DNA of 35,038 bases from Clostridia bacterium (GTDB taxonomy: Bacteria; Bacillota; Clostridia; Lachnospirales; Lachnospiraceae). The notes under the pieces were generated by a model. That model searched no databases, had not been told where the DNA came from, and was given only the letters and a program-made list of their open reading frames with translations. Location of the stretch: positions 1 to 35,038 of the forward strand of contig CAJTDE010000040.1 of the NCBI GenBank assembly GCA_910574835.1. Reading direction: 5' to 3'. Numbering within the stretch: the stretch's first letter is position 1; each line of letters starts with the position of its first letter. Both the position numbers and the translations under genes were made by a program. This document shows, piece after piece, positions 16,472 to 23,907 of this stretch.

Positions 16472-16500
16472 TTGCGTATCATGTTTTGATAAAGTATAAT
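16472..16500 (+). promoter_or_regulatory. Probable promoter of the antitoxin-like gene
   Basis: TATAAT at 16495-16500 is a perfect -10. The -35 at 17 bp spacing is TTGCGT (16472-16477), matching only TTG. The start of the gene follows 33 bp later. Confidence 0.5.
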
Positions 16501-16533
16501 AAACACATAAGGAAAAAGAAAGAAGGTGTTTCT

Positions 16534-16758
16534 ATGATTGCTTTACAGGCTTATTATGATGGAAATGCGGTGCAGCCATTAGAAGAGATCCACGCACAGA
16601 AGAATCAGAAGCTGATCATTACTATATTAGATGAATTTATTGATGAAACACTTACAAAAGAAGTAGAAAAAACTGCCAGAGGAATATTGGGGAAATATGC
16701 CAATCCGGAATTGCAAAAGCTAAAAAGAAAAGCTGCTATAGCTACTGAACCAGACTGA
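16534..16758 (+). CDS. Small AF2212-like antitoxin family protein (orphan)
   Basis: The product is 74 residues. ATG at 16534 has AAGGTG 8 bases upstream; the longer open frame from 16450 has no ribosome site. The N-terminal MIALQAYYDGNAVQPLEEI and the following LIITILDEF strand fit the AF2212/DUF104-like antitoxin family, whose members usually start V-x-A-x-Y-x-G and continue x-P-L-E. The C-terminal half contains RGILGKYANPEL, a stretch I associate with clostridial members of this group. Such antitoxins normally neutralise a PIN-domain RNase toxin encoded next door. Here no toxin gene follows, so it is an orphan or the remains of a pair. It has its own promoter and a terminator at 16808-16850. 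Confidence 0.65.
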   Translation: MIALQAYYDGNAVQPLEEIHAQKNQKLIITILDEFIDETLTKEVEKTARGILGKYANPELQKLKRKAAIATEPD

Positions 16759-16807: not shown

Positions 16808-16850
16808 CCATGAATTATAGGGCGGAAACAGCCATGATTCATGGTTTTTT
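16808..16850 (+). terminator. Intrinsic terminator before the kinase-helicase gene
   Basis: CCATGAAT (16808-16815) pairs perfectly with ATTCATGG (16837-16844), followed by six T (16845-16850). It separates the antitoxin gene from the three-gene cassette, which therefore needs its own promoter. A weak candidate is TTGCTT at 16849 with TATTGA 17 bp on, which I would not rely on. Confidence 0.8.
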
Positions 16851-16916: not shown

Positions 16917-19900
16917 ATGGCTACATATATTGCAGATCGCTACAGACTTAAGAGAAAAGACATTGGCGGTGGAAATATGGCGTCAATTCATCTGTGTGAA
17001 GATACGGATATGGATGATGGCGACAGGGATAGTTCCGTTATTGTTAAAATGTTTAATAAACCGAATATCGGTGATGAAGATTTGCAAAAACAGGTTTTTA
17101 ATCGGGAGGTTGAGTCTTTAGACAAGCTGAATCATAAAAATATAGTCCGCATATTAGACAGGGGTTATGATGAGGGTTTTAAGGCTTTCTTTATTGTGCT
17201 TGAGTATATTCAGGGCGAGAACTTTAAAGAGGCGTTTGGAGAGATCTGCAGATATGATTATGGCCAAAAGCTTGAATTAATAGAACAGGTTGTTGAAGGC
17301 ATTGAATATTTACACAAAAAGAATATTGTTCATCGTGATTTAAAGCCCTCTAATCTTATGCTTGATAAAGACGGCATAGTAAAAATTATAGATTTTGGTA
17401 TTAGCAGATTACAGGATACCTTCTATAGTGATTATACATTAGCTGCATTTGTAACGAAGAATTACAGTTCTCCAGAGCAGTTGGCCGGAAAAACGATTAC
17501 ATATCAGAGTGATATATATTCTCTTGGATTAATCTTTTATGAGATATTCACTTGTAACAATGTTACTGCTCGTGAATCTATGGATGTAAGCGGGCTGCCT
17601 TTGGGGATGCAGAATATTCTCGTGAAGATGACAGAAGAGGAGCCTGATTTAAGATATGGAACAATTACTGAGCTTAGGAGAGACATTGAAAAAGAGAGAA
17701 GTCTTCTTGTTCAGGAGAAATATATCAGCTTAGGTTTTACCAACAACGTGACTAAAAGATTAACGGCATTTGGTTACATAGCGAAGGAAGAAACAACATT
17801 AGCATTAAAGGCTCTTGAAGAAGAATATGCCGGAAAATGTTATATGTGGCCAATTAAGAATCAAGACGGCCGGTTTGAAGGTTCTTTTGAATTATATGGC
17901 CAAAGGTTCAGTTCGGTTCTAAAAATTGATCAAAGAGATGAGAAGCGTTTTACTGTTATAAGTATCAAATTTATTCAAGCCGACAGACTGATGACACAAA
18001 AGGAATTGGCTTATGAAATTCCTTATGGCGTACAGGTGGGAAGAGGAGCAAGAGTTCATTATAAAACTGAGGTTAACGCACAGATATTGAGCGAGGAAGT
18101 GCTTAATCATGAAGCTGATTTTATTAACCGACGTTCGGACGATATGCATCAGAAAGATATTACGGGAAAATGGAAAAACATTCTCGAATTAGAGAAGAAG
18201 CGGATAAGCCAGGAAAAATCTACATTAACATACCGTAATTTAAAAATAAATGAAAAAGATGCATCGCTGGAGATTGAGATTAATACGGATAGAGCATATG
18301 AATTGAATTATACCGCAGATGATATGCTCCAGATGACAACAAGAAAGAACATTCATCGTTATTTGGATGTTGGCCATATGAGAGAGTTTTCCGATGGTCA
18401 TATGATAATTGATCTCGCACCACAGGTTGATTACTCAAATATTGCTTCTTCAGGTGAAATATCTATTAGTATGAGAATGGCAGAGATTGCTATCGAGAGA
18501 CAGCGTAAAGCATTAAAGAGTATTCAATATAAAGAAAACGTGAATCCGGAGATAAGCGAGATTATCTTTCATCCTTCAAAGGCAACTTCCAAGAATAATC
18601 TTATCCTGACAGAAGATGACTGTAAATCAAAAGAAATTGACAGGTCTAAGTTGATAAGTCTTGAAAGAGCCTTATCGGCAGATAATATATTCCTGTTACA
18701 AGGCCCTCCAGGTACAGGAAAGACTACATTTATATCTGAACTTGTGTATCAGATTTTAAATGGTAATGATAAGTACCGGGGAAATCCAGATGCAAAAATA
18801 CTAATAACATCTCAGTCGCATGTGGCTGTTGACCATTCATTGGCAAAGATTAAGAAACTTATTCCGGATATTAAAATGATTCGTATAGGTATCATAGATA
18901 AACTAGCGGAGTCGTCAAGGGAATATACATTGGATATTTTCTGCAGAGAATGGACAAAGAAGGTGATTGAAAACTGCAAAGCTGCTCTTGTAAAATATAA
19001 GCAAGAGATTGGAATTGATGAGACGTTACAAGAAAAGAATAGTATCATTACTGAAATTGACAGTATAACACAAGAGACTGCGGATTTAATGGAGGAGCTT
19101 GAAAAAGTAGAATCAGAGCTTGAAAAAATAAACATTTTAGACTCAAAGTGGCAGTTTGTTAATGATAAGATTGCCTCTATGAAACAAATAGTATCTGTTA
19201 AGACTGCAGGAGTTACTGAAGAACATTTGTCACAGATTATTGATAATTTTACGGATAGTTTATCTGGACTTAATGATAAATTGGCATCTGTTATTGACGA
19301 ATCAATCGCATTGTCAGAGCAGAAAATGGAACTTCAAGACCGATATGCAGCAATGAAAGATGAATTGAGCGTAAAGAGCCATGAAGTAAATGAATGGAAA
19401 GAGCTTCTGGGAATATCTTCAAATGAAGAGTATGTACAGGTCAAATCTGATATTCAGGCAGCTCTTAAAGAGAATAAGAAGAAATATGCTAAATATTCCA
19501 AAATTGAAAGCATATGCAAAGAATGGCAGAAACGAGTTGCACAGGGGGACGGACTATTACAGGAGAGTATTGCGGATTCGACTCTTGTAGGAGCTACTTG
19601 TCTTGGCATTGCCAGTCTAAGTGGCGCAATTGAATCTAATTTTGATTGGGTAATTGTGGATGAAGCAGGAAAGGCAACGCCGCCCGAAATCCTTGTTCCC
19701 ATATGCTTAGGACGAAAAGTAGTATTGGTGGGGGATCATAAGCAGTTACCACCGGTAGTTGACGAGGCTTTGTTAAAATTACAGGATAAGGAACGAATGA
19801 ACATTAGCAAGGAAGATCTTGAATTAAGTTTGTTTGAGTATCTTGAAAGAAGCCTGAACAATGAGTGTAAGAATATTTTGGATGAACAATATCGAATGAA

Positions 19901-20522
19901 TCCGGTGATTGGCGATCTCATCAGTAAGTTATTTTATGAAGGTAAACTGATATCAAAAACATCAAGAGAAGAAAAAACAATTCCACTTAAGATATATGAG
20001 AACAAACCTTTGGTATGGCTTTCGACTGCTTCCAGGTCAGATAGAAAAGAAGAACGAATATCTGATTCCTATAGAAACACTTGTGAAGCAAAAATTATAT
20101 TTGAACAGCTGCTTGAGATCGATAAAGAATTGGGTGAGCTTAAGCTTAGGAAGGAAACGGCAATTATTGCCGGATACAGAGGCCAGAGGGACAGGCTAAC
20201 AGGATTGTACGAAAGTAAATACAAAACAAGATTCCATAATATGACAGTTGAAATTAATACGGTTGATGCGTTTCAAGGCCGTGAGACAGATATTGTGTTC
20301 TATAGCGTTGTGCGAAGTAACGATGAGGGCAATCTTGGATTCTTAAAGGATGTAAGAAGACTAAATGTAGCCTTTTCAAGAGCCAGAGAGCTTCTCATTG
20401 TTGTTGGTGATCATCAGTGTGCTCAAAGACGTTTCGATATAAATGGCCAAGAGAATCCATTTGTAGGAATTATAAAGTTTATTCGTGATAATTCGGATGA
20501 TTGTATACTGAAGGAGGTGTAG
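16917..20522 (+). CDS. Ser/Thr protein kinase fused to Upf1/Dna2-like SF1 helicase
   Basis: The product is 1201 residues; GAGGTGG ends 4 bases before the ATG. Residues 1-265 form a complete Hanks-type kinase: glycine loop IGGGNMAS, K44 (VIVK), E64, catalytic HRDLKPSN (139-146), DFG (159-161), SPE (185-187) and D199. A linker domain of unknown fold (about 270-580) leads to a superfamily 1B helicase: Walker A GPPGTGKTT (596-604), VDEAGKA (914-920), VGDHKQLPP (938-946), QYRMNP (991-996), VDAFQGRETD (1116-1125) and AFSRAREL. A long coiled-coil insertion (about 690-860) splits the helicase between motifs Ia and II. No export or membrane signal. It is AT-rich against its surroundings. It probably remodels nucleic acid and phosphorylates partners in a defence response; this is inference from domains and context. 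Confidence 0.9.
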   Translation: MATYIADRYRLKRKDIGGGNMASIHLCEDTDMDDGDRDSSVIVKMFNKPNIGDEDLQKQVFNREVESLDKLNHKNIVRILDRGYDEGFKAFFIVLEYIQGENFKEAFGEICRYDYGQKLELIEQVVEGIEYLHKKNIVHRDLKPSNLMLDKDGIVKIIDFGISRLQDTFYSDYTLAAFVTKNYSSPEQLAGKTITYQSDIYSLGLIFYEIFTCNNVTARESMDVSGLPLGMQNILVKMTEEEPDLRYGTITELRRDIEKERSLLVQEKYISLGFTNNVTKRLTAFGYIAKEETTLALKALEEEYAGKCYMWPIKNQDGRFEGSFELYGQRFSSVLKIDQRDEKRFTVISIKFIQADRLMTQKELAYEIPYGVQVGRGARVHYKTEVNAQILSEEVLNHEADFINRRSDDMHQKDITGKWKNILELEKKRISQEKSTLTYRNLKINEKDASLEIEINTDRAYELNYTADDMLQMTTRKNIHRYLDVGHMREFSDGHMIIDLAPQVDYSNIASSGEISISMRMAEIAIERQRKALKSIQYKENVNPEISEIIFHPSKATSKNNLILTEDDCKSKEIDRSKLISLERALSADNIFLLQGPPGTGKTTFISELVYQILNGNDKYRGNPDAKILITSQSHVAVDHSLAKIKKLIPDIKMIRIGIIDKLAESSREYTLDIFCREWTKKVIENCKAALVKYKQEIGIDETLQEKNSIITEIDSITQETADLMEELEKVESELEKINILDSKWQFVNDKIASMKQIVSVKTAGVTEEHLSQIIDNFTDSLSGLNDKLASVIDESIALSEQKMELQDRYAAMKDELSVKSHEVNEWKELLGISSNEEYVQVKSDIQAALKENKKKYAKYSKIESICKEWQKRVAQGDGLLQESIADSTLVGATCLGIASLSGAIESNFDWVIVDEAGKATPPEILVPICLGRKVVLVGDHKQLPPVVDEALLKLQDKERMNISKEDLELSLFEYLERSLNNECKNILDEQYRMNPVIGDLISKLFYEGKLISKTSREEKTIPLKIYENKPLVWLSTASRSDRKEERISDSYRNTCEAKIIFEQLLEIDKELGELKLRKETAIIAGYRGQRDRLTGLYESKYKTRFHNMTVEINTVDAFQGRETDIVFYSVVRSNDEGNLGFLKDVRRLNVAFSRARELLIVVGDHQCAQRRFDINGQENPFVGIIKFIRDNSDDCILKEV

Positions 20523-20526
20523 ATGC

Positions 20527-21999
20527 GTGACTATCGAAGAACTTGCAAAACTGAAAGCCAATTCTGTACCTGATTCAATACTTGTAAAATATTACGAAGC
20601 TGGGATTCCCCAATGGCATATGGAAACAATTCTTACAATGCTAAAACCTAAAAAACTGTCTGTTTTACAGGAGTTTATTTTAAAGTTTATTTCATCAGGA
20701 ATAGATGATGTTTCTGATATATGTAACTTCCTTGGAGTGAATAAGTCTGCGGTAAATAACGCAGTTGCGGTTCTGCAAAAAAACAGCTTAATAGCAGTTG
20801 ACATATTCTATTCAAAGTTAAAACTTACGGATAAGGGTGAGAAAGCCTTGAAAGAAGCCGCAACAATTGTTCCGGAGGATATTGAATATGTATTGTATGT
20901 GGATGGTCTTATTGGAAACGTATATCTTGATACAAGAAAACTTTATAACGTTAAAGAGCTGCATAATTTTGAAATAAGACCAATTAATACTACGATAGAA
21001 AAACCGACAATTGCCACTTTGATATATGATGAGGTTAAGCGTGCCATCAATTCATTTAAGAAGAATCATGCTTATGAACGGGACAAATTAGAAGGGGATT
21101 TACAAGAAATATCACGGATTGTAAAGACTTATGTTGAATACAAAAGAGTATATGTTCTTGTTTTCTTGAATAATAAATCGGAAGATATTGAGTTTCAGGT
21201 ATATGACGGTACAACACGCAATGATGATTATAGTATAGCTTTGCAAAGGCAATACAATAACAACACGCATGTATTTGATTTTGACAGTGTAGAGACAACA
21301 GAGGAAGAAACAGATAATTCGCTGATAAGCGTATTACCACAAGAGATTATCGAAAGTGCCAAATCATTTTCTTATAAGGATTCCACATTAGAACGTGAGA
21401 TATCAAATTTAACAACACAGCTTGATGCAATGAAAGATAACAGTGATGACACCGAGGAACAGAAAGAATCAGCAACAGATAGGATTCGCTTCCTGGAAAA
21501 GAAGATAGATGAGATGAAGAATGAACGTAAGGGAGCGGACCGGATTTTATCTACATATGACCATAGACCTTTATTATTGGAAGCTCTGGATCATGCACAG
21601 AATATGGTTGTGATTGTTTCTCCGTGGATCAAGTCTGGTGGACTCAATTATGAAATACTTGGTCGGATAGAAAGAGTTTTGCAAAGAAAGGCACAGGTTG
21701 TTATCGGATATGGGATCAGCGAAAAAGAAGATAGTGATAGATGGATTTTACAAAGATTATCAGATATTAAAAATAAGCAATATGGAAAGAATCTTCATCT
21801 TGTTAAATTGAGTAATACACATGAAAAGGTATTGATTAAGGATAATGAGTATATGGTTATTACCAGCTTTAACTGGCTTTCATTTAAAGGTGATCCAAAG
21901 AAAGGATTTAGACAGGAAACAGGATATTATACAGAATCGAAAGAAGCTATAAAACAGATGAAGGAAAATCTTTCGAATCGAATGAGCATTAGGCTATAA
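20527..21999 (+). CDS. Winged-helix protein with C-terminal PLD-nuclease-like domain
   Basis: The 490-residue product starts at GTG 20527, 4 bases after the helicase stop, with AAGGAGGTG at 20510-20518; an ATG at 20523 is out of frame and is a decoy. Residues 43-110 look like a winged helix with VNKSAVNNAVAVLQKNSL as recognition region and LKLTDKGEKAL as wing. The middle (120-260) is not recognised. A coiled coil lies at 285-340. The C-terminus (340-490) is a phospholipase D superfamily domain with H432-x-K434, D439 and TSFN (446-449), the HKD pattern once per chain, as in dimeric PLD nucleases. It is the likely effector nuclease of the cassette; activity is inferred. Confidence 0.8.
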   Translation: MTIEELAKLKANSVPDSILVKYYEAGIPQWHMETILTMLKPKKLSVLQEFILKFISSGIDDVSDICNFLGVNKSAVNNAVAVLQKNSLIAVDIFYSKLKLTDKGEKALKEAATIVPEDIEYVLYVDGLIGNVYLDTRKLYNVKELHNFEIRPINTTIEKPTIATLIYDEVKRAINSFKKNHAYERDKLEGDLQEISRIVKTYVEYKRVYVLVFLNNKSEDIEFQVYDGTTRNDDYSIALQRQYNNNTHVFDFDSVETTEEETDNSLISVLPQEIIESAKSFSYKDSTLEREISNLTTQLDAMKDNSDDTEEQKESATDRIRFLEKKIDEMKNERKGADRILSTYDHRPLLLEALDHAQNMVVIVSPWIKSGGLNYEILGRIERVLQRKAQVVIGYGISEKEDSDRWILQRLSDIKNKQYGKNLHLVKLSNTHEKVLIKDNEYMVITSFNWLSFKGDPKKGFRQETGYYTESKEAIKQMKENLSNRMSIRL

Positions 22000-22011
22000 A
22001 GGAGTGGCATG

Positions 22012-23400
22012 ATGGTATATCTGCAAATGGAAAATGATAGAATACCGATTGGCAATTTTTCTTTTGTGTATGATCACACGAATAACGAAGAACTTTTTTG
22101 TAAATTTTATGACGCTGAAAGGCATCTAAAAGTTGATTATATGGATTTTGCGCATAAAATCAGAATAGCGTTTGAAGCTTTTGCTTTAGATGAAGAAGCA
22201 AGGAAACGTAAGAAACAAGAGACTTATAAGGATATTCATATTTCTGTTATAAAGGAACAGATAATATCGGAAATAAAGCAACCGGCATCTTTGTTAAATT
22301 ATAAGAATATTGTTCTAGCGTTATGTGATGGGCGAGAATTAGAATTCGAGGATATGCTGTTAAGGTATTCGTTTATAAAAAACATTTCTTACGAAGATGA
22401 AGTAAGAAGAAAATTCAAGGCTTTTATTCGTTTTTTATATGGTTTTGGAAGTGAGAGTTCTCATGAAAATGTAACTTTTGAAGAAAAGTATATCCCAAAT
22501 AAAGAAAATTGTCTGAGAGTTGCAGGAGCTTTTCATGACTTTTTATGTATCTATTATGGAGAGATGAAAAAATACGATAGTACGCTGGCTCCTGTCAGAG
22601 ATTATATTGCGGTTCCTAAGCAGGTTGTTGATAAAATGGGGTTAGTTCTGGAAGTCGGAAAATCTCTTTTTGTTAAAGAACGAAGAGGGAAAATAACATA
22701 CCATATTTTTTCAAGTGATATAGACAGCATAAGCCAAGGACAGAGACGTGATATTGATGTTATCAATAAGCTTTGGGAGGATAATGCTGAGGATCCGTCA
22801 AATGTTATCAGGCAGGCGGAGCATATTAGCGGCAGCAATGGAGATTATAGGTTTCAGGTGTACTCATTACCAAATAGACCGCTCAGATTAACAGATGACT
22901 TTGTCAACAATATGAACATAGGACAAAAAATGAATATCATCACTGGCTTGTGCAGAGGGGTTGCATCCATACACAACTACGAAACACCATTGTTTCAAAG
23001 AAATATTAATCCGGATGCATTTTATATTTTTGATATAAGGGGAAAATATAAGCCTTTACTTGCAAAATTTGATTGTACGAAGGATTCTGCTGATGCGGCA
23101 TTTACGGTGTTTCAGAATGTTGAAAAAAAGGTGCGTAATCAAAACATAAACCAGTATTTTGCTCCCGAGGTTATGAAATCTAATATGGGTATAGGAGTTG
23201 ACTGGGAAAAAGCAGATATTTATTCGCTAGCAAAGACGATAGCATATATTATTCTGGGTAAAGTGGTTGAATTTTCGGACTGTTTGGCTGATGTTGAAGA
23301 CATAGATGATGAACTGAAGATGATCCTTATGGAAATGTTAGATGAAAATCCGAAAAATAGACCAGGCTTAGAAAAATTGATGGAAATTCTGAAGATTTAG
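22012..23400 (+). CDS. Protein with C-terminal degenerate kinase domain (pseudokinase)
   Basis: The product is 462 residues from ATG 22012; the adjacent ATG at 22009 is only 4 bases after GGAG (22001-22004), so the second fits better. The first 210 residues are mostly helical and charged and match nothing I know. The rest follows a kinase C-lobe: the HRDLKPSN position reads QRNINPDA (329-336), replacing the catalytic Asp by Asn and the metal-binding Asn by Ala. DFG reads DCT (354-356). FAPEV (383-387) and KADIYSLAKT with D402 are kept. This predicts a protein that binds or regulates rather than phosphorylates. It is the third gene, 9-12 bases after the PLD gene, and AT-rich like it. Confidence 0.75.
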   Translation: MVYLQMENDRIPIGNFSFVYDHTNNEELFCKFYDAERHLKVDYMDFAHKIRIAFEAFALDEEARKRKKQETYKDIHISVIKEQIISEIKQPASLLNYKNIVLALCDGRELEFEDMLLRYSFIKNISYEDEVRRKFKAFIRFLYGFGSESSHENVTFEEKYIPNKENCLRVAGAFHDFLCIYYGEMKKYDSTLAPVRDYIAVPKQVVDKMGLVLEVGKSLFVKERRGKITYHIFSSDIDSISQGQRRDIDVINKLWEDNAEDPSNVIRQAEHISGSNGDYRFQVYSLPNRPLRLTDDFVNNMNIGQKMNIITGLCRGVASIHNYETPLFQRNINPDAFYIFDIRGKYKPLLAKFDCTKDSADAAFTVFQNVEKKVRNQNINQYFAPEVMKSNMGIGVDWEKADIYSLAKTIAYIILGKVVEFSDCLADVEDIDDELKMILMEMLDENPKNRPGLEKLMEILKI

Positions 23401-23460: not shown

Positions 23461-23709
23461 GGCGGATTTATGGCTACTTATCTGGATTTGCTTGGCTGCA
23501 TTACCTGTGGAAAGACTGTGGAAAGTGCGGTGGCAAATGCACTGGATGCAAAAAAAGCGTGGATTGAAGCCACAATCTAAGAAGGTGTGGAAATCCATGA
23601 ACCGGATAGTCTGGAGGATTATTCTGGACAGTTTAAATTGAGAATTCCACGAAGCCTACATAGATCACTGGCAGAACATTCTCAGAGAGAAGGAATCGGT
23701 ATGAAATAA
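23461..23709 (+). pseudogene. hicB: Broken HicB-family antitoxin gene
   Basis: The frame reads GGFMATYLDLLGCITCGKT, VESAVANALDAKKAWIEAT, then TAA at 23578-23580, then in the same frame EGVEIHEPDSLEDYSG, QFKLRIPRSLHRSLAEH and SQREGIGMK to a TAA at 23707-23709. This is the HicB layout: partial RNase H-like fold followed by a C-terminal DNA-binding segment. Two stops (TGA TAA) lie just before GGF, the usual N-terminus is missing, an internal stop splits it, and the C-terminus is cut short. No hicA toxin gene is visible. It is a decayed toxin-antitoxin locus at the downstream edge of the defence-like cassette. Confidence 0.85.
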
Positions 23710-23861
23710 TATTGTGTATATCTTCTTTCCAAAAATGATGCGGTGTTCTCGAAATGAAAGCATAAAAGAGACGAAACCTAATTTGCAGAAGAAAGGGGCT
23801 GCTAAAGAGATATGGTAAACGAAGGTGGGCAAACGCTCTCTGGTAAGCTATAGAAAAGGAA

Positions 23862-23907
23862 AAACCATGAATCACAGAATAAAGGAATACGCTGTGATTC
23901 ATGGTTT
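23862..23907. terminator. Bidirectional hairpin between the island and the deacetylase gene
   Basis: AAACCATGAATCACAG (23862-23877) pairs perfectly over 16 bp with 23892-23907, with A-rich sequence before and T-rich after, so it can end transcripts from both sides (convergent with the deacetylase). Its right arm shares TGATTCATGGTTT with the terminator at 16835-16847. The stretch 23710-23861 shows no gene. Confidence 0.75.

Follow-up and report, generated by a model that had tools for sequence, protein, structure and literature searches.

The three-gene cassette and its insertion site

We analyzed a 35,038-nucleotide stretch from a Clostridia bacterium of the Lachnospiraceae (GenBank assembly GCA_910574835.1, contig CAJTDE010000040.1; hereafter the window), which is one contig of a 5.0-Mb assembly in 133 contigs. 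It carries a cassette of three genes, the first two of which encode, as judged by profile matches, MkoA and MkoB of the type I Mokosh defense system, and the third of which encodes a protein with a pseudokinase domain:

16917-20522, plus strand: gene 1, mkoA, 1201 amino acids; active Ser/Thr kinase (about residues 1-265) and UPF1/SMUBP-2-like superfamily 1 helicase (about 540-1201), assigned from PADLOC, Pfam, and motifs
20527-21999, plus strand: gene 2, mkoB, 490 amino acids, GTG start; winged helix, coiled coil, and single-HKD PLD domain (HKD at residue 432), assigned from PADLOC and the motif
22009-23400, plus strand: gene 3, 463 amino acids; helical N-terminal region, possibly DUF4145/HEPN-like, and pseudokinase domain (about residues 205-463), assigned from homology to loci L039, L040, L060, and L086

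Open reading frame (ORF) coordinates and strand agreed with the tight packing described in the original prediction for this DNA, which had put the gaps at 4 and about 10 bases; the measured gaps are 4 bases between genes 1 and 2 and 9 bases between genes 2 and 3. A pattern scan of the plus strand detected no terminator-like site in either gap. The same trio, spaced by 5 and 9 bases but among other neighbors, is present in another Lachnospiraceae metagenome-assembled genome (MAG; locus L001), which places the cassette beyond chance. All three genes are under purifying selection (ratio of nonsynonymous to synonymous substitution rates between the window and L001 = 0.058 for gene 1, 0.061 for gene 2, and 0.122 for gene 3, values that are approximate because the synonymous rate was 0.83 to 1.10).

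Protein 1 matched the PADLOC MkoA profile (PDLC03920) over nearly its full length (E = 7e-232; residues 3-1198 on profile positions 5-1107 of 1112), and the Pfam families Pkinase, AAA_11, and AAA_12 were all far above their cutoffs. These domains, together with the motifs HRDLKPSN from residue 139 (catalytic D141) and Walker A GPPGTGKT from residue 596 (K602), confirmed the earlier reading of an intact kinase joined to a UPF1-type helicase. Protein 2 matched the PADLOC MkoB profile (PDLC03922; E = 2.9e-77, best stretch 20-423), and its PLD end (residues 330-484) matched the C-terminal end of PADLOC MkoC (E = 8.1e-20). The winged helix, coiled coil, and single HKD ascribed to this protein were likewise borne out, with the HKD at H432, whereas Pfam placed both PLDc_2 (20.1 versus 27 bits) and a MarR-type winged helix below threshold. 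D141, K602, and H432 had been numbered correctly, as judged from motif positions; K44 of protein 1 was counted by eye in the translation and also agreed.

The original prediction that this combination matches no known system therefore did not hold for genes 1 and 2, and a wholly undescribed system was dropped as a candidate because PADLOC names two of the three genes. It stood for gene 3, which lies outside the type I Mokosh architecture shared by its two neighbors and gave only weak matches to generic or defense kinases. No description of a pseudokinase subunit of Mokosh was found among the listed matches and passages covered from open-licence PMC papers, which is not proof of its absence from print.

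The cassette is inserted at a site that is empty in congeners. By blastn against loci L087, L088, and L089, the following stretch was without a counterpart in the empty site of genome G012 (L089), although a block within it (16487-16719) does have a counterpart in L087:

16315-23958, no strand: stretch absent from the empty site, containing the cassette

Cyclophilin and deacetylase genes are directly adjacent in G007 and G012, and in G002 (L087) they are separated by genes for an AF2212-like antitoxin and a PIN protein. The G+C content is 35.7% in the three cassette genes versus 48.4% and 46.0% in the flanks. Horizontal acquisition is the best explanation for the cassette, and we hold it jointly with the reading of the whole locus given below. 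Two antitoxin-type features border the cassette:

16534-16758, left of the cassette: AF2212-like antitoxin ORF, weak (E = 0.024), without a partner
23470-23706, right of the cassette: HicB-type antitoxin remnant in two pieces (HicB_lk_antitox, E = 4e-5; HicB, E = 5e-6)

Terminator-like hairpins flank the cassette at 16830-16846 and about 23860-23907 and share a 14-base inverted match, which was the only repeat detected between the cassette flanks.

It is very improbable that these genes form a housekeeping RNA-processing or stress kinase operon rather than a defense locus. Such a role would fit the solved structures nearest to the protein 1 helicase, NAM7/UPF1 and SMUBP-2, as well as the position of the window MkoA in a deep lineage on a long branch; in addition, PADLOC calls of Mokosh can be overgenerous, as a passage of PMC11811056 states for type II in the Bacillus cereus group. 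However, the profile match spans the kinase, middle, and helicase regions with MkoB next door, and the low G+C content and the site left empty in congeners speak for an acquired element. The presence of MkoA is also patchy: the profile matched in 10 of 397 sampled family genomes at E = 1e-60 or better and in 15 of 391 class genomes at 1e-90 (the two samples overlap). No MkoA relative was detected among 50,697 phage records at E = 1e-40. Defense, as originally proposed, is the best-supported role, and the antiphage function itself is inferred.

The third gene and its relatives

Profile searches placed gene 3 only loosely. In Pfam, Pkinase was below threshold and covered only the kinase end; weak matches were obtained to NCBIfam MAD6 (E = 4.9e-9), the PADLOC MkoA kinase (E = 1.2e-8), and a PHROGs kinase family (E = 4.6e-5); and among solved structures the only matches were eukaryotic kinases at E = 7e-4 or weaker. 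The catalytic motifs were compared in an alignment of nine MkoA or partner kinases, seven pseudokinases, and one NERD-kinase. Gene 3 and its six homologs (7/7 aligned) have all lost the Asp of HRD, the Asn of the loop, and the Asp of DFG: HRD is replaced by QRN in the window and by HRN, HRQ, or HRA elsewhere, DFG is replaced by KFD, FFE, or NFE, and no loop Asn remains. In the same alignment, all nine MkoA, partner, or related kinases kept both catalytic Asp residues. All seven pseudokinases also share a motif, [DN]W before the conserved C-lobe Asp (D-[IV]-[YF]). These losses confirm that gene 3 encodes a kinase fold without catalytic residues, as first noted.

The closest relatives of gene 3 are found in L001 (82% identity) and L002 (72% identity), and the nearest named relatives belong to Agathobacter and Lachnoclostridium MAGs. 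In all three of these loci (window, L001, and L002), gene 3 directly follows mkoB; the L002 contig starts within mkoB, whose C-terminal end is readable right before gene 3. In L001, a fourth gene (L001:10404-11942) encodes an AAA ATPase with an AAA lid, weakly like PADLOC IetA, that is present in neither the window nor L002.

More distant homologs of the pseudokinase domain were detected in four other Bacillota genomes (L039, L040, L060, and L086). In L039 and L040, both from members of the class, the operon is split: it encodes a DUF4145-pseudokinase, a separate active kinase, an MkoA-type helicase that lacks the kinase, a winged-helix MkoB-like protein, and small membrane proteins. Gene 3 matched the two pseudokinases by BLASTP (E = 3e-11 and 3e-6) and the split-locus pseudokinase by profile-profile comparison with hhalign (probability 97.2%, E = 3.5e-11, columns 269-463). 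Profile searches yielded L060 (matches in two genomes, G779 itself among them, out of 16 in its order) and, in another class, L086 (matches in two genomes, one of them the window's own, out of 299 in the phylum), and in the order of G1071 they matched 1 of 28 genomes, G1071 itself. Both L060 and L086 have the gene order pseudokinase, kinase, helicase, MkoB-like, and their pseudokinases match gene 3 at E = 5e-5 and 1e-16, respectively. Across 392 genomes of the order, only four weak partial matches were obtained besides the window's own; those in L020 and L022 are ordinary kinases that keep the HRD Asp. Gene 3 had no match in 72,556 plasmid records at E = 0.01, and six pattern stretches in viral contigs included no relative.

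Mokosh-type genes adjoin all seven loci of the pseudokinase family, four of which (L001, L002, L060, and L086) were found through the pseudokinase protein or profile, independently of MkoA.

The association extends across different effectors. The HKD was found in MkoB of the window and L001 (the readable part of L002 MkoB lies behind the HKD position), in all seven loci from cyanobacteria, and in L049, a locus of the Arcobacter type. By the pattern used, it was detected in none of five Rhizobiales loci and none of five two-gene Clostridia loci (L014, L015, L016, L037, and L038), where either the nuclease site may have been lost or another effector may be at work. Among the split loci, no HKD was detected in the MkoB-like proteins of L040 and L060, none in that of L086 by a stricter pattern, and a single HxK match, outside a PLD context, in that of L039. 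Hydrophobic segments in these loci are part of the MkoB-like protein itself in L086 and belong to small separate proteins in L039, L040, and L060. The pseudokinase thus accompanies the helicase and kinase rather than one effector type.

The slot behind mkoB and the proposed function of gene 3

We surveyed the gene behind mkoB in 19 loci with a fused MkoA. L002 lies outside this survey, as its contig starts inside mkoB, as does L049, in which no kinase motif was found; weaker-scoring MkoA-profile loci (L009-L013 and others) were covered in part, and 13 of the 15 plasmid records with an MkoA match were opened (the other two, H3 and H7, have match scores equal to those of H2 and H6). The pseudokinase occupies the slot in two loci (window and L001). 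In all five opened Rhizobiales plasmid loci (L044, L047, L048, L083, and L084), a PP2C phosphatase gene overlaps mkoB, and L037 has a 252-amino-acid gene without an assigned family 49 bases past mkoB. A DUF3800 gene comes next after the PP2C gene in L044, L048, and L084. The remaining 11 of the 19 loci have no same-strand ORF of at least 80 amino acids starting within 50 bases of mkoB; the contigs of L014 and L038 end 328 and 485 bases past mkoB, and the remaining 328 bases of L014 contain no 60-amino-acid ORF. A third gene is thus not essential to Mokosh in general.

In helicase trees, the lineage of the window branches off deeply and separately, and a single clade holds all four split pseudokinase loci. 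A single clade of all six pseudokinase-bearing helicases was rejected (approximately unbiased test, P = 1.8e-4, with a warning from the tool about long branches) in a tree that omits six long-branch rows of 35 (L049, L061, L062, L063, L064, and L065). The sequences are compatible with either movement of the pseudokinase between Mokosh lineages or its loss many times, and in both cases it would be a recurrent Mokosh partner. As a separate observation from this helicase family, an MkoA-type helicase and a neighboring protein in L058 (5170-11222; G1003) adjoin a protein matching the Cas10 palm domain and Csm1 domain B, and the counterpart of the Cas10-like protein in L059 (4831-10829; G934) looks alike by eye. 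A link of the family with cyclic-oligonucleotide signaling is possible from these two loci.

The survey and the trees bear on an unlikely alternative, that the window holds an ordinary two-gene Mokosh with gene 3 as an unrelated passenger behind mkoB in one small lineage. The many loci without a third gene favor it, and the slot evidently collects genes, since L001 has its extra AAA ATPase behind gene 3. Against a passenger, four distant loci have a homologous pseudokinase next to an MkoA-type helicase that is not a sister of the window's, and within the cassette the gaps are short and conserved and the genes are under purifying selection.

We consider it likely that the locus is a horizontally acquired type I Mokosh antiphage cassette with a third, accessory phospho-signaling gene that regulates the MkoA kinase. 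In the mechanism that we propose, the UPF1-like helicase part of MkoA would meet phage RNA or exposed single-stranded nucleic acid, and the helicase and the MkoB winged helix would position the PLD nuclease of MkoB, which would be expected to work as a dimer given the one HKD per chain. Phosphorylation by the active MkoA kinase, with MkoB, the third protein, or the kinase itself as the substrate, could determine the threshold. As a dead kinase, the third protein may in turn bind the live kinase and control it allosterically, or it may carry the phage signal to it. Because PP2C fills the same slot in Rhizobiales, an on/off switch by phosphorylation is suggested.

A more far-reaching proposal, which we put forward tentatively and with some doubt, is that gene 3 represents a new conserved family of Mokosh subunits, made up of a DUF4145-like region and a pseudokinase, that through transfer or repeated loss elsewhere has come to be paired with at least two separate MkoA lineages of differing effectors (PLD nuclease in one, membrane proteins in the other). 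Such a subunit would sit in the sensing and regulatory core rather than at the killing end, as a dead kinase that, gated by infection, releases the live MkoA kinase or activates it.

Several points, along with the 11 loci without a third gene, weigh against the reading of the cassette that we consider likely. The pseudokinase may retain ATP binding. AlphaFold modeled gene 3 at very low confidence (mean predicted local distance difference test score of 39.9, and 42.2 for the N-terminal region alone). Close homologs are rare, being found among 98 relatives in the window's own genome only, with two further loci in the genome contig collection. Two of the seven family loci (L039 and L040) came out of the MkoA search itself. 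In a 2026 review, Mokosh is still among the systems whose mechanism is given as unknown (PMC12926258). The N-terminal region adds two more: Pfam matched no DUF4145 in L060, yet this protein aligns with L039 and L040 across the region, and an hhalign comparison of the gene 3 N terminus with a four-row DUF4145-type profile was not separated from 40 shuffles.

The same region bears on the quite improbable view that gene 3 is a toxic or effector part, such as an RNase of the HEPN type that the kinase system holds in check, instead of a regulator. DUF4145, which an excerpt of PMC3710099 counts as a member of the HEPN superfamily, was above the Pfam cutoff in L039 and L040 and just below it in L086 (20.2 versus 23.1 bits). 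With L086 added to give a five-row profile and a trimmed query, the hhalign score of the gene 3 N terminus exceeded those of all 60 column shuffles and all 200 residue shuffles, and AlphaFold models of the region were mostly helical, at very low confidence. For gene 3 the evidence is mixed, and a HEPN-like nature of this region is weakly supported. Besides the failed four-row comparison, an effector role is opposed by the lack of a Pfam DUF4145 match in gene 3 and by the nuclease motif already present in MkoB. Moreover, the R-x-x-G-N-x-x-x-H stretch of the homologs reads, by eye, Y-G-F-G-S-E-S-S-H in gene 3, so the Arg has seemingly been lost. In L040, a stand-alone copy of the DUF4145-like domain (2248-2670) lies immediately before the DUF4145-pseudokinase gene.

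A regulatory gene 3 would have practical and general consequences. The pseudokinase in one lineage and PP2C in another, both behind mkoB, point to phosphorylation as a control layer, and the slot would offer a simple genetic handle on Mokosh control.

Comparison with known systems

Type I Mokosh reportedly consists of two genes, mkoA and mkoB, and is said to have been validated against phages by Millman et al. in 2022. The window resembles it in having a kinase-helicase MkoA followed by a winged-helix/PLD MkoB in the same order, and differs in its third, pseudokinase gene and in an MkoA from a deep, separate lineage of the helicase tree. Type II (mkoC), which is one fused protein, also combines a helicase with PLD, and its C-terminal end is matched by the PLD end of the window MkoB; in contrast, the window has two genes plus a kinase and a pseudokinase. 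A passage of a 2023 paper lists the type I domains as NERD and PLD-like (PMC10952713), and in an excerpt of PMC11291487 Mokosh is said to degrade viral transcripts.

DISARM is defined by the DrmA helicase, DrmB (DUF1998), and a methyltransferase. The likeness to DISARM drawn in the original prediction did not extend to membership: Pfam detected none of the three among nine window proteins, which include the neighbors on both sides, and the only PADLOC match within the cassette was a weak DrmC-like PLD match in MkoB (E = 1e-5). Membership in BREX type 2/Pgl was rejected as well, as there is no NERD in the three cassette proteins and no PglZ or PglX among the nine scanned.

CoCoNuT types II and III, as described in part of PMC11090510, similarly join a UPF1-like helicase to an effector (HEPN or PLD) that carries a winged helix, often with kinase, PP2C, and vWA genes of the TerY-P type. 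The scanned window neighbors include no TerY-P triad, however, and membership was rejected because Pfam detected no McrB-type GTPase in the nine proteins. Elsewhere, in L062 (7120-13329) and L064 (3793-12368), MkoA-like helicases have a kinase nearby, together with genes resembling, by eye, vWA and PP2C, an arrangement that recalls the TerY-P triads of CoCoNuT.

Two further comparisons concern pseudokinases. The DLHK proteins, according to a portion of PMC12599244, are bacterial pseudokinases linked to helicase/DNA2 domains, but they retain two residues, the Asp of HRD and the Asn of the loop, that gene 3 has lost. A dead/live kinase tandem within one defense protein is described for PglW and DndF in a passage of PMC12839542. 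The window likewise pairs a pseudokinase with an active kinase, and the gene 3 pseudokinase is weakly similar to PglW and MAD6; in contrast, its two kinases are on separate proteins, the window proteins have no NERD, and the scanned neighbors include no BREX or Dnd genes. If the more far-reaching proposal for gene 3 is true, a single switch made of a dead and a live kinase would be common to PglW, DndF, and Mokosh in bacterial immunity.

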